Shown piece after piece: positions 17,378 through 21,017 of a stretch of 64,000 bases of DNA (within the stretch, counting starts at the first letter, position 1; each line of letters starts with the position of its first letter). Made by a program: the position numbers and the translations under genes. Origin of the DNA: Methanococcoides methylutens. Lineage in GTDB: Archaea; Halobacteriota; Methanosarcinia; Methanosarcinales; Methanosarcinaceae. The notes under the pieces are model-generated. The model had not been told where the DNA came from and ran no database searches. It saw only the letters and a program-made list of their open reading frames with translations. The DNA lies in assembly GCF_000765475.1 (NCBI RefSeq), contig NZ_JRHO01000009.1, forward strand, positions 124,001 to 188,000, written 5' to 3'.

Positions 17378-19279
17378 TCAGCCAAATTTCACGATCGGAC
17401 AAATATCAATACAGGCGCCACAGTGGATACATTTGTTTCCAATGATAGCTTTCTCGTCTTTGACTGTAATGGAGTTGTTTGGACATTTTCCCACACAGAC
17501 GCCACAACCCATGCATTTCAGGGCACGCCTGACCGATCTTTCCACATTGGTCATGAACTTGCGTGCACTTTTCTCGTCATTACCTCTTGCAGTGATAGTT
17601 CCCGAGGCAAATATCTGTGCACGGTCATCCTCATGTTGTACTGAAGCGACCCCCTCAATATAAGCAGGCTTTCCGGCAGCACGAAGCTGTCCGGTGCTTT
17701 CAATAAGTTCCATATCAAGTGCAATGCCAAAACTACCTTCTGCAGACATTCCACCTTCGCGACATGGCCTGTATCCGGAGGTCACAGCAAAGTTCAGGTT
17801 GCCCTTTACTTCGCTCTTTGGTATGATATTGATGCCTTTCTGTTTTGCCACTTCTGCAATGGCAGGCGGCAGGGTTTGCCATCTCCATAATCCGTGGTCC
17901 ACCCATTCTTTTGAGAGTCCCATACGTTCTGCATATTCCAGCAGGTAGTCATTAAGTCTCTTTTCCATCTGTGGGTGTGTTTCCTTTAAACGCACAATGT
18001 CTGCCAGTGATGAGGACGGGCACAGCCAGCATCCGATCCTGTCAAAACCGCGTTCATACATCACGTTGTATGGTACCTTGGTCTTGAAAATATAAAGCCA
18101 GACGTGCATTGCGGTCCAGTCCTGTATTGGGGATGCACCCACCTGGTTCCCTACCCATGGGTTCTTCCACACACGTTCGCTCTTTGCCCGGGCATCTGAC
18201 TCATACTTTCTCTGGCCGATAAAAGTGAGACATCCATTCTCGTAGTTCTCTTCGATTATCTGTGTGATGGGGCCGAGCTTACATACCTTGCAGCACCAGC
18301 GTGCTTCCACAGATGGCGGTCCGAAATTATCAACGCTGTCCCAGAATGCTTCCTTTGCATCTTTTGTCCTGAGTGGTTTATTGTATAATTTCTCGATCTC
18401 TTTTACATTCTCTATGGTTTCAGGGAATTCCAGTCCGGTATCTGCAAAGAGAAGATCATAATTTTCCAGGCATTCACTTGTCAGTTGTAGTACCGCAAGA
18501 CTGTCCTTGCCACCGGAATATGAGACTGTGACCGGTTTTTTAACGGTCTCATTCACGTTTTTGATAAATGAATGTGCTTTCTCCTCAAAACGATCGAGGA
18601 TTTCCGAGTTCGCCTCTACGGCATCGTTCCAGGTCTGCCCACCTTCAGGAACGTTCAGTTTCTCAGGTTTGCCTTTCCAGCGGGTCTTGACCCCGACACC
18701 ACGCTTGTGTTCCAGCATATCGGCACCTGGCATGCGTGCTCGACCGGCAGCTATGATATCTCCTTCGGGGGTAAGTACGACCGTTTCATCGGAATTCTGT
18801 ATCTCAGGGTCGGCATCAACGATTCCCGGTGCAAGTACGCTTGCACCCTTTAATATGAAATTCACAGCTCCGCTGTCCAGTACAACCCATCCTCTCATGT
18901 CTTTGAGGTCCTTCCCTTCGAAAAGACGTCTTGCACCGGGCAGTCTTGGCAATAGTACCCACTTGAGTTTTTCGATCTCAAAACGAATGCTTGCGAGAAC
19001 TTCCCCGTCAACTATGATCTCTTCCATCCTGTCATCGTATGGGGCCTTGTTCATCACAACAAGATGTCCTTCCGGTATAAGCGGTGCGTTGAACTGCTTC
19101 ATTGAAACAGCATTGATATTATCTATGTCGTACTGGAATGCCGGACGTATATCTCCAGGAGGGGTGACCTCTACCTTTTGAGTGCTCTCTCCACAACTGC
19201 ATTTCTTCCCAAGTACGGGCACATTACAATTACTGCACCAGTGGAGAAGCAGTTTTCCAAGATATACAGGTTTTGACAT
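17378..19279 (-). CDS. PAPS-reductase-fold protein with zinc ribbon, PUA domain and 2x[4Fe-4S] ferredoxin
   Basis: The 633-residue protein has four parts. A zinc ribbon holds WCSNCN and KCSC within residues 15-30. A PUA-like domain covers about 80-190 (DSGAVNFILKGASVLAPGI). An adenine-nucleotide hydrolase domain of the PAPS reductase class has PP-loop SYSGGKDSLAVLQL near 255, the cysteines ARWCCKVCKLGP and then GCWLCPSS. A C-terminal ferredoxin has CMGCGVCVGKCPNN and CIHCGACIDICP. PUA domains bind RNA, and many PP-loop enzymes thiolate tRNA, so sulfur transfer to RNA is plausible; sulfate or sulfite assimilation is the alternative. It lies 53 bases downstream of the Cas4-like gene on the same strand. 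Confidence 0.88.
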   Translation of the reverse strand: MSKPVYLGKLLLHWCSNCNVPVLGKKCSCGESTQKVEVTPPGDIRPAFQYDIDNINAVSMKQFNAPLIPEGHLVVMNKAPYDDRMEEIIVDGEVLASIRFEIEKLKWVLLPRLPGARRLFEGKDLKDMRGWVVLDSGAVNFILKGASVLAPGIVDADPEIQNSDETVVLTPEGDIIAAGRARMPGADMLEHKRGVGVKTRWKGKPEKLNVPEGGQTWNDAVEANSEILDRFEEKAHSFIKNVNETVKKPVTVSYSGGKDSLAVLQLTSECLENYDLLFADTGLEFPETIENVKEIEKLYNKPLRTKDAKEAFWDSVDNFGPPSVEARWCCKVCKLGPITQIIEENYENGCLTFIGQRKYESDARAKSERVWKNPWVGNQVGASPIQDWTAMHVWLYIFKTKVPYNVMYERGFDRIGCWLCPSSSLADIVRLKETHPQMEKRLNDYLLEYAERMGLSKEWVDHGLWRWQTLPPAIAEVAKQKGINIIPKSEVKGNLNFAVTSGYRPCREGGMSAEGSFGIALDMELIESTGQLRAAGKPAYIEGVASVQHEDDRAQIFASGTITARGNDEKSARKFMTNVERSVRRALKCMGCGVCVGKCPNNSITVKDEKAIIGNKCIHCGACIDICPIVKFG

Positions 19280-19332
19280 CGTAGATGGTCACTGGAAGAA
19301 TGCATAAATAGGTTTTGGCTGCTGTAACCTTC

Positions 19333-20154
19333 TCAAAAGAGTTTGGAAGCAAGGGATGACTTCGTAGTGGTGCAGAATTTTGTAAAATTGCAATATTTGC
19401 AGATGGGACCTTCTTTCCTTTCAGGTAGGATGCCTTCCTTTATAGTGTCAACACGCTTTCGTATCTTCAGGACCTGTCGGCGGTCTTCCGGTCTGATCTT
19501 AACTTTTCGGATATTCCCATGTCTTGCGTATTGCACAAAACCATGCTCGACACTATCCTCGTAGTTGTCCTCGAGAAGCATTGCAATGGCTGCAATGTGG
19601 ATCCTGTCATTTCCCCAAACACCGGAATCCGGGCATTTGCCTGTTCTTATGCTAAGGGGTACCATTCTTTCCTTGTACTGTATAATTGCAGAAGGTATGC
19701 CGGTCATCTTCAATTTGTCAGAATGCAGCACTGGCTCTGTACGATATGGTCTGATCCTCTGTATGATCTCTTCCCGGCCATGTTTCCTGATAGATTCCGT
19801 AAGGTTCGCAGCAATGCTGTCGATCTGCTCAGAAACAATATTTTCAGCAGTTTCCAGTACTTTTAAAGGCAGATCTCGTAGTTCGGTAGAATATATTAAT
19901 TCCAGCTCAGCTTTTACACGTTCCATCTCGATGTTAAGTTCGTCATGGATGTTCTGTTTTTCATCCGTAGTTCTCTCAATAGCATCCGGATATCCAAGGG
20001 AAAGTTCCTTTAGCATCATGTGCTCAAGGTATTCTGGGGTTATTTCCGGAGCAAGCTTATGGTTTCGGTAAGCATAGTAGACCTGTCTGGGGCACTTCAG
20101 GTACAGGGTCAGTTCAGAAACATTTGCATGCAGTTTGAGATTTATCAAGGGCAT
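19333..20154 (-). CDS. Cas4/Dna2-like Fe-S protein with degenerate nuclease site
   Basis: The 273-residue protein has the Cas4 (DUF83) layout and keeps four cluster cysteines: Cys21 in YLKCPRQVYY and Cys252, Cys255, Cys261 in GPICKYCNFTKFC. The RecB-type nuclease motifs are changed: the expected GxxD is GIPS (152-155), the expected ExK is SIR (168-170), and the Gln of the next helix is His186 in NDRIHIAAIA. Cas4 normally trims DNA during CRISPR adaptation, but no array or cas1/cas2 is visible here. It is therefore better called a solitary, probably non-nuclease Cas4-like protein. It heads a likely two-gene unit with the PUA/PAPS-reductase gene. Confidence 0.8.
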   Translation of the reverse strand: MPLINLKLHANVSELTLYLKCPRQVYYAYRNHKLAPEITPEYLEHMMLKELSLGYPDAIERTTDEKQNIHDELNIEMERVKAELELIYSTELRDLPLKVLETAENIVSEQIDSIAANLTESIRKHGREEIIQRIRPYRTEPVLHSDKLKMTGIPSAIIQYKERMVPLSIRTGKCPDSGVWGNDRIHIAAIAMLLEDNYEDSVEHGFVQYARHGNIRKVKIRPEDRRQVLKIRKRVDTIKEGILPERKEGPICKYCNFTKFCTTTKSSLASKLF

Positions 20155-20276: not shown

Positions 20277-21017
20277 ATGACCGAAGATATGGCCCATGAG
20301 AACATCCGTCAGCGTCTGGCTGAAAAGATGGCAGGTGAGATCACTTTATCTGAGAAGCCCGGAGAGGCTTTGAAGAAGTGGCGATTGAACTTTGATATTG
20401 CCCAAACCGACCTATCTGGTTATCTTGGTGTATCTCCTTCTGTGATAAGTGATTATGAAAGTGGCAGAAGGAAATCTCCCGGTACTCTTATTGTAAGCAA
20501 GATCGTAGACGCACTTTTGGAGATCGACACCTCCAAAGGCGGACAGAAGATCCATAGCTATGAAGGGATGCTTTATACGGATCCGGGTGCCAAGGCAGTG
20601 TATGCTACGTATGAGTATACATATCCTATACAGCTTGCAAAGCTTGCAACCCTGATCGAAGCAGATGTTGTGAACAAGGGAGTTGAAAAGCCTCTTTACG
20701 GTTTCACTGTTGTGGACAGTAAAAAGGCCATTCTTGAGCTTTCATCCCATGAGTTCCAGAAGCTGTATGGCTGGAGTACCGAGCGTGCAATGATATTCAC
20801 AAAGGTTTCTACCGGAAAATCCCCAATGGTGGCTATCCGCGTAACGAATTTGAAACCCGGTGCAGTGGTCATTCACGGAATAAGGGGTAATCAGGTCGAT
20901 CCGATGGCCAGGAAGATGGCAGAGATAGATCGAATACCACTTCTTGCAACGACAATGGATATTGATGAACTGGTGGACGTCCTGAAAAAGTACAGCCAGT
21001 ATCATATAATCGAGTGA
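20277..21017 (+). CDS. HTH regulator of the mevalonate entry operon
   Basis: The 246-residue protein has an XRE-type helix-turn-helix at about residues 35-85 (AQTDLSGYLGVSPSVISDYE). A C-terminal domain of about 150 residues ends in DIDELVDVLKKYSQYHII. In many euryarchaea a homologue sits directly before HMG-CoA synthase, as here, so it likely senses a metabolite and controls isoprenoid flux; the ligand is unknown. No ribosome site precedes ATG 20277 and the TATA box is only about 30-40 bases upstream, which suggests a very short leader. MAHENIRQRL at 20289 is an alternative start. Confidence 0.82.
   Translation: MTEDMAHENIRQRLAEKMAGEITLSEKPGEALKKWRLNFDIAQTDLSGYLGVSPSVISDYESGRRKSPGTLIVSKIVDALLEIDTSKGGQKIHSYEGMLYTDPGAKAVYATYEYTYPIQLAKLATLIEADVVNKGVEKPLYGFTVVDSKKAILELSSHEFQKLYGWSTERAMIFTKVSTGKSPMVAIRVTNLKPGAVVIHGIRGNQVDPMARKMAEIDRIPLLATTMDIDELVDVLKKYSQYHIIE

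Follow-up and report, generated by a model that had tools for sequence, protein, structure and literature searches.

Two adjacent, intact genes on the minus strand of a 64,000-nucleotide stretch of Methanococcoides methylutens DNA (the window, part of contig C9 of the 2.5-Mb genome G000) encode a Cas4/Dna2-like iron-sulfur (Fe-S) protein and, co-directional and downstream of it, a member of the PRK13795 family. With a probability that we put at about 0.58, these are two conserved proteins encoded side by side in one archaeal family, PRK13795 being an ATP-activating Fe-S RNA sulfurtransferase and the Cas4-like protein a nuclease-dead Fe-S scaffold. Both proteins are widespread on their own and mislabelled, and their genes probably stand next to each other in a single family without forming one fixed machine. 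The PRK13795 family has already been catalogued; new here is its reading as an RNA sulfurtransferase. Among the papers listed in literature searches, none treats the pair.

The first-pass annotation of the window, made from the letters alone, had described two co-directional genes 53 bases apart, and the open reading frames (ORFs) are confirmed at these places. Chance ORFs are ruled out for both genes because full-length orthologues exist across the order, in 93 of 99 genomes for the Cas4-like protein and in 80 of 99 for PRK13795, the latter at a cut of our own of about 52% identity.

Domain organization of the PRK13795 protein

The 633-residue ORF scores 1154 bits over residues 1–632 against NF010368 (cut-off 588) and is a member of PRK13795, which NCBIfam (NF010368, NF010366-69) describes as 'hypothetical protein' without an assigned function. 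Pfam matches to PUA (E = 5.7e-19) and PAPS_reduct (E = 2e-45), together with conserved cysteines, bear out the zinc ribbon, PUA domain, PP-loop and two [4Fe-4S] motifs that had been read in the first pass. The AlphaFold model of the protein has a mean predicted local distance difference test (pLDDT) score of 88.4. Conservation in the following list was read from an alignment of 23 orthologues and paralogues.

17378..19279, minus strand: PRK13795-family protein, 633 residues, with zinc ribbon, PUA, PP-loop, alpha+beta domain and two [4Fe-4S] motifs
19184..19246, minus strand: zinc ribbon, residues 12-32; C15, C18, C27 and C29 invariant in 23/23
18665..19153, minus strand: pre-PUA and PUA module, residues 43-205, from structure match
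17960..18622, minus strand: PP-loop (PAPS_reduct) domain, residues 220-440
18500..18517, minus strand: SGGKDS, intact ATP-pyrophosphatase motif, residues 255-260, invariant in 23/23
18281..18295, minus strand: CCKVC, residues 329-333, with cysteines that may bind a third cluster
18020..18031, minus strand: CWLC, residues 417-420, likewise with cysteines that may bind a third cluster
17555..17794, minus strand: alpha+beta domain, residues 496-575, where BrxP has its Mog1/PsbP-like domain (BrxP-profile region)
17390..17527, minus strand: dicluster ferredoxin domain, residues 585-630, eight invariant cysteines

Among the structure-search matches listed, to which all structural comparisons here refer, the PUA module resembles archaeosine tRNA-guanine transglycosylase (1iq8, Z 14.7 over 148 residues) and PH0734 (3d79, Z 14.7 over 156 residues), and it also matches NSUN6 and Cbf5. 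Residues 220–430 match (P)APS reductases, that is, adenosine or phosphoadenosine phosphosulfate (APS or PAPS) reductases, as well as FAD synthase and GMP synthetase, with TtuA lower. The solved reductases have other letters at the position of SGGKDS. The PP-loop domain has five further invariant cysteines (C329, C330, C333, C417 and C420), overlooked in the first pass, which could hold a third cluster.

The best reading of PRK13795 from these features is an RNA sulfurtransferase, most likely acting on tRNA, because SGGKDS is intact, ECGLH is absent, a dedicated CysH is encoded elsewhere in the genome, the PUA module is of an RNA type and relatives are fused to cysteine desulfurase. Nucleic-acid sulfur transfer, the role first suggested for the PP-loop protein, appears most likely, with RNA a more likely target than DNA and with sulfate reduction not the probable function. 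The chemistry that we infer is one in which the PUA module would dock the RNA, the SGGKDS pocket would activate the target with ATP, and sulfur would be delivered to this substrate via the cysteine/cluster site of the PP-loop domain. Electrons fed by the C-terminal ferredoxin would serve the reduction of a persulfide-level donor, and the Cas4-like protein would bind nucleic acid as a scaffold.

Relatives fused to cysteine desulfurase

In other families of the phylum, relatives of PRK13795 form ORFs of about 880–960 residues. At least 23 ORFs of 870 residues or more occur among them, of which three were read (L117, L118 and L119). All three consist of a zinc ribbon, a PUA-type region and a SGGKDS PP-loop followed by a cysteine desulfurase-like end. 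The fusions read (among them L119:13612-16356 and L118:4265-7036) are about 880–920 residues long. The desulfurase part of L118 matches 5b7s with E = 6.3e-94, and those of L117 and L119 were judged by eye. The L118 protein is 34% identical to the window PRK13795 over 488 residues and 36% identical over 475 residues to P2, a second PRK13795-type protein of the same genome (684 residues, 38% identity to the window protein). This fusion is mentioned, as CysH with SufS, in a passage of PMC11237513. In the window, no cysteine desulfurase is fused to PRK13795 or adjacent to it among the annotated neighbours.

The genome also encodes separate NcsA and ThiI proteins, so that thiolation of U34 and U8 seems covered and the target of PRK13795 would be another. 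In the M. acetivorans ribosome paper, consulted for an rRNA target, the terms thio, s2C and s4U do not occur.

The paralogue P2 lies in a co-directional block (L063:406-11614, contig C14 of the same genome) with NfnAB-like flavoproteins, an AI-2E-type permease, ThrRS and an acylphosphatase, with ThiI further on. The block is kept in five of the eight P2 loci fetched (L063-L070) and suggests an electron supply to the ferredoxin tail.

A Cas4 fold without nuclease residues

The Cas4-like protein matches Pfam Cas_Cas4 with E = 1.8e-9. It scores 61.4 bits against the NCBIfam cas4 model (TIGR00372), just under the cut-off of 65, which is reached by two distant members of the Cas4-like family (L097, 76.9; L108, 66.2). 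Its AlphaFold model (mean pLDDT 86.6) matches Cas4 (7mi4_A, Z 17.6, 189 residues) and the nuclease domain of Dna2 (5ean_A, Z 15.8, root-mean-square deviation 3.6, 249 residues). Unlike Dna2, the 273-residue ORF has no helicase domain, nor any other domain.

19333..20154, minus strand: Cas4/Dna2-like Fe-S protein without nuclease residues, 273 residues, from ORF, profile and structure matches
20092..20094, minus strand: first cluster cysteine C21 (YLKCPRQVYY), invariant in 63/63 members
19372..19401, minus strand: cluster cysteines C252, C255 and C261, invariant in 63/63 members
19645..19701, minus strand: degenerate active site, residues 152-170, with GxxD as GIPS and ExK as SIR
19336..19356, minus strand: conserved C-terminal tail SLxSKFF (here SLASKLF), pLDDT under 50

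The catalytic D, E and K are replaced by S, S and R in the window protein. Residues were read in 63 members, comprising 26 from the order, 20 from a broad set and 17 of a further 19, the other two of which are Cas4 controls. All 63 have a hydrophobic residue or serine in place of the catalytic glutamate; the set was gathered with a profile of E-less sequences, against which E-bearing enzymes such as the two controls would score lower. Those controls (L144 and L145) are true Cas4 proteins with D, E and K, found in two of the same genomes (G210 and G165). The aspartate is kept in 20/20 members of the broad set and in 7/26 of the order set; in a group of GC-rich families, presumably haloarchaea, H or A stands in its place.

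The fold, the loss of the glutamate and the retention of the cluster cysteines agree with what had been read from the window alone, namely a Cas4 fold that lacks nuclease residues and keeps its four cluster cysteines. The further suggestion, that an inactive nuclease fold could hold nucleic acid, is likewise supported, the Cas4-like protein being a nuclease-dead Fe-S fold that could do so, and the reach of this fold is much wider than a single window could reveal. Of 246 genomes of the phylum, 223 have matches to a profile of 26 members at E up to 1e-10. The Cas4-like protein is probably a core gene of its phylum and a nucleic-acid-binding Fe-S scaffold.

A CRISPR-associated Cas4 is ruled out by the score below the cut-off, the missing triad and the absence of cas genes among the annotated neighbours; neither cas1 nor cas2 is among those of the window (purH, helix-turn-helix (HTH) regulator, HMG-CoA synthase, thiolase, cyaB and metG). 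The SLxSKFF tail was also considered as a PCNA-interacting (PIP) box and this was rejected, as the spacing, compared by eye with the motif, does not fit.

Counter-evidence and neighbours of the Cas4-like gene

Several observations weigh against the preferred reading. In many Cas4-like members outside the window's family the D and the K/R remain, and a missing glutamate is no proof that nuclease activity has gone altogether. PCNA is found near the Cas4-like gene, divergently transcribed, in four loci of family f10, and Orc1/Cdc6 is directly upstream in two loci (families f11 and f21); both point to DNA. PRK13795 has PF01507 in common with true reductases, and in structure its PP-loop domain is matched best by (P)APS reductases and FAD synthase. 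The genome of the window makes APS via CysDN, so that (P)APS is available in it. BrxP, whose profile comes closest in PADLOC, has to do with the phosphorothioation of DNA and not of RNA. Finally, PRK13795 has a homologue in M. jannaschii, which we take to be MJ0066. PAPS reductase activity has been claimed for this homologue in an MSc thesis cited in a passage of PMC10322725.

The surroundings of the Cas4-like gene were surveyed in 63 loci, chosen by us for spread and not at random, and include both tRNA modification and DNA replication genes. Sua5, a tRNA t6A enzyme, is near the gene in 17 loci and in most of these adjoins it convergently. A nucleotidyltransferase-like protein occurs in 11 loci, often next to the Cas4-like gene and in four of them immediately upstream on the same strand, and hpt and pyrBI are found in three loci each. 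No one partner holds across the phylum. The alternative that fares best, although we consider it unlikely, is that the Cas4-like protein serves replication or repair as an accessory factor whose dead Dna2/Cas4 domain reads DNA ends, and that it is unrelated to PRK13795 and adjacent to it through neutral synteny. The alignment with the Dna2 nuclease domain, the tight Orc1/Cdc6 neighbour and the divergent PCNA argue for such a role; Sua5, the nucleotidyltransferase-like protein, hpt and pyrBI, and the want of a single phylum-wide partner, argue against it. This explanation concerns only the Cas4-like half and is compatible with PRK13795 as an RNA sulfurtransferase.

The nucleotidyltransferase-like protein (L108:4964-5890 and its homologues) has 308–320 residues and a GS...SDIDFxxYG motif; it has no Pfam or NCBIfam match, and its class was read from the motif.

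Gene order of the pair across relatives

The positions of the two genes were compared in 99 relatives. The locus in the window is completed by the following features.

19280..19332, no strand: intergenic gap of 53 bases between the Cas4-like gene and PRK13795
15685..17301, minus strand: purH, adjoining PRK13795 downstream on the same strand, a neighbour kept in the gene order of the family
20277..21017, plus strand: HTH regulator, divergent, followed by HMG-CoA synthase and thiolase genes

Both genes are present in 53 of 60 genomes of the window's own family, and they occur together in Methanococcoides and in the greater part of that family. In 40 of the 53 the two genes share a contig and are no more than 3.5 kb apart, a count that takes in one genome with a truncated Cas4-like gene (G014) and the genomes of genus g10 with weak matches. 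All 40 linked genomes have the Cas4-like gene upstream of PRK13795 and on its strand, and 23 genomes, that of the window included, have gaps of 46–57 bases, measured between match coordinates with the stop codon left out. Two of the 53 have the genes far apart on one contig. In sister families with both genes linkage is 0/21, with 20 genomes on different contigs and one with the genes 153 kb apart; where the genes are on different contigs (11/53 in the family, 20/21 outside), linkage or its absence is not certain.

Linkage is also 0/5 in genus g14, with four genomes on different contigs and one at 2.19 Mb. In the two g14 genomes that were read, the Cas4-like gene stays with the HTH regulator block and PRK13795 with purH; because each half keeps its own neighbours, the block broke exactly between the two genes. 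Where the two genes are separated, the HTH regulator accompanies the Cas4-like one.

The two genes are also found apart. Family f3 has the Cas4-like gene in 11/11 genomes and PRK13795 in none, and the near-complete genome G028 has PRK13795 and no Cas4-like orthologue shown. Across the phylum the Cas4-like gene occurs in 223/246 genomes, as given above, and the PP-loop protein in 84/246. Since linkage fails outside the family and the distributions differ, the pair is not an obligate unit.

Linkage exceeds chance within one family and not beyond; in that family it is real and old, and it is no general rule. The conserved adjacency by which the first pass had proposed to check its idea is found in the Methanococcoides family and fails in the sister families, in g14 and, going by the separate distributions, in most of the phylum. 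The idea itself, one dedicated module, fares less well, with genes widely separate elsewhere. In such a module the Cas4-like protein would bind the RNA or DNA target and PRK13795 would sulfurate it, the two cooperating from distant loci where they are unlinked. The shared order, strand and narrow gaps in the family favour it, as does Sua5, through which an association of the Cas4-like gene with tRNA modification recurs, although these Sua5 neighbours are mostly convergent, a weak sign. Given the failed linkage in sister families and g14 and the independent occurrence of each gene, we regard a single module as distinctly improbable. A shared job of the pair in RNA modification is possible, and the data do not require it.

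Variant loci were seen as well. In G014 (genus g5; L039:7143-9300) the Cas4-like gene stops after about 140 residues, and an ORF that by eye is TnpB-like lies between it and PRK13795; in G027, of the same genus, the Cas4-like match ends at nearly the same place. The Cas4-like gene of G013 (genus g4; L031:7349-8250) has an in-frame TAG where relatives have glutamine, with the conserved full-length end beyond it; this TAG may encode pyrrolysine, be read through or be a nonsense change. A class-I glutamine amidotransferase gene adjoins PRK13795 in place of purH in families f14 and f30 (L121, L122, L123 and L124).

Sulfate assimilation as an alternative

PRK13795 might instead reduce (P)APS to sulfite in sulfate assimilation, with its built-in ferredoxin as electron donor. 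Such an enzyme would account for the strong PAPS_reduct match, for the CC...CxxC cysteines, which are like those of APS reductases, for the claim made for the M. jannaschii homologue and for CysDN in the same genome. However, that genome has a dedicated CysH of 274 residues with SGAED and ECGLH, the latter being the catalytic cysteine motif of APS and PAPS reductases. Its gene lies in an operon-like run (L127:5758-10015, contig C10) with a sulfite/nitrite reductase-type protein, CysD (named from place and length) and CysN, which is bacterial-type assimilatory sulfate reduction. ECGLH is absent from the window PRK13795 protein, with its intact SGGKDS, and from P2. Nor does the window protein reach the curated CysH/PAPS reductase models (NF002537, 80.4 of 154 bits; TIGR00434, 67.7 of 165.1; TIGR02057, 50.1 of 254.2).

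The distribution of APS-forming enzymes adds to this. Sat is found in 20 of the 80 relatives that carry PRK13795 and CysN in 17, while 43 lack both; of the 18 such genomes that are in one or two contigs, eight have neither. Sat is absent from all 11 genomes of the genus Methanococcoides, and from this it had been considered that the genome cannot make APS. That idea was dropped, as CysN is found in 9/11, the genome of the window included (it is absent in the one-contig genome G006). Together with the desulfurase-fused relatives and a PUA domain of no obvious use in sulfate reduction, these findings make a reductase quite a doubtful assignment.

Possible DNA phosphorothioation and a proposed wider RNA pathway

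A wider proposal extends the RNA sulfurtransferase reading. PRK13795 and its desulfurase-fused relatives may form an RNA sulfuration pathway of methanogens, an RNA counterpart of DndA-DndC/SspA-SspD, in which sulfur would enter as a new thionucleoside or even as a backbone phosphorothioate and the nuclease-dead Cas4 with its Fe-S cluster would present or sense the RNA substrate. We offer this as a speculation with small odds of being right.

The BrxP profile scores 185.8 bits on the window protein (residues 219–626, profile positions 101–501 of 779) and covers its PP-loop, alpha+beta and ferredoxin parts; it scores 177.5 bits on P2 and 53.9 bits on the CysH of the same genome, where it covers the PP-loop only. 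The same arrangement of PP-loop, alpha+beta and ferredoxin domains is described for Type-4 bacteriophage exclusion (BREX) in a passage of PMC12839542. Membership in BrxP is ruled out, as PglZ (PF08665) has 0 matches in the genome of the window. It is very unlikely that PRK13795, as a cellular relative of BrxP/SspD, introduces phosphorothioates into DNA with the Cas4-like protein as its DNA-holding partner: the profile match and the DNA binding of known relatives of the Cas4-like fold favour it, and the missing PglZ, an RNA-type PUA module instead of a DNA-binding domain, and the lack of dnd, ssp or brx genes among the annotated neighbours oppose it.

Implications and comparison with known systems

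If PRK13795 is an RNA sulfurtransferase, then proteins annotated 'phosphoadenosine phosphosulfate reductase' in many methanogens would be RNA-modifying enzymes, reconstructions of sulfur metabolism would be corrected and a candidate enzyme for archaeal thionucleosides would be gained. 2-Thiocytidine is reported in archaeal tRNA, and the passages of PMC7694415 that report it name no archaeal enzyme for it. Likewise, a phylum-wide protein that scores near or above the Cas4 model in most sampled genomes would be a conserved Fe-S scaffold and no CRISPR nuclease, which would run against the statement, in a passage of PMC5704561, that Cas4 proteins conserve their catalytic motifs.

The Cas4-like protein shares its fold and four cluster cysteines with Cas4 (TIGR00372) and solo-Cas4, and differs from them by its score below the cut-off and the absent catalytic glutamate. 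An inactivated derivative of Cas4 with the metal-binding glutamate replaced is known in TP1, the nucleocapsid protein of TTV1; in the passages of PMC4625639 this viral capsid protein is the sole inactivated case named. TP1 is viral, with a split gene and a lost cluster, whereas the Cas4-like protein is encoded by a cellular gene and keeps the cluster cysteines.

On the sulfur-transfer side, BrxP, SspD and DndC have in common with PRK13795 a PP-loop of the PAPS_reduct class, and BrxP also the alpha+beta domain and ferredoxin tail, but no PUA domain is described there, and PRK13795 is a widespread chromosomal gene rather than part of a defence locus. The [4Fe-4S] tRNA thiolases NcsA and TtuA resemble it in a SGGxDS-type adenylation pocket with cysteines, which in PRK13795 may hold a cluster as well; in M. 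maripaludis NcsA three cysteines hold the [4Fe-4S] cluster according to a passage of PMC10067955. These thiolases differ from PRK13795 in PP-loop subclass. The Methanomicrobiales fusion of CysH and cysteine desulfurase (cluster 536, printed as CysH in the part of PMC11237513 consulted) shares with PRK13795 the zinc ribbon, the PUA-type region and the SGGKDS PP-loop, and carries a SufS-type desulfurase in place of the alpha+beta and ferredoxin tail of the window protein.

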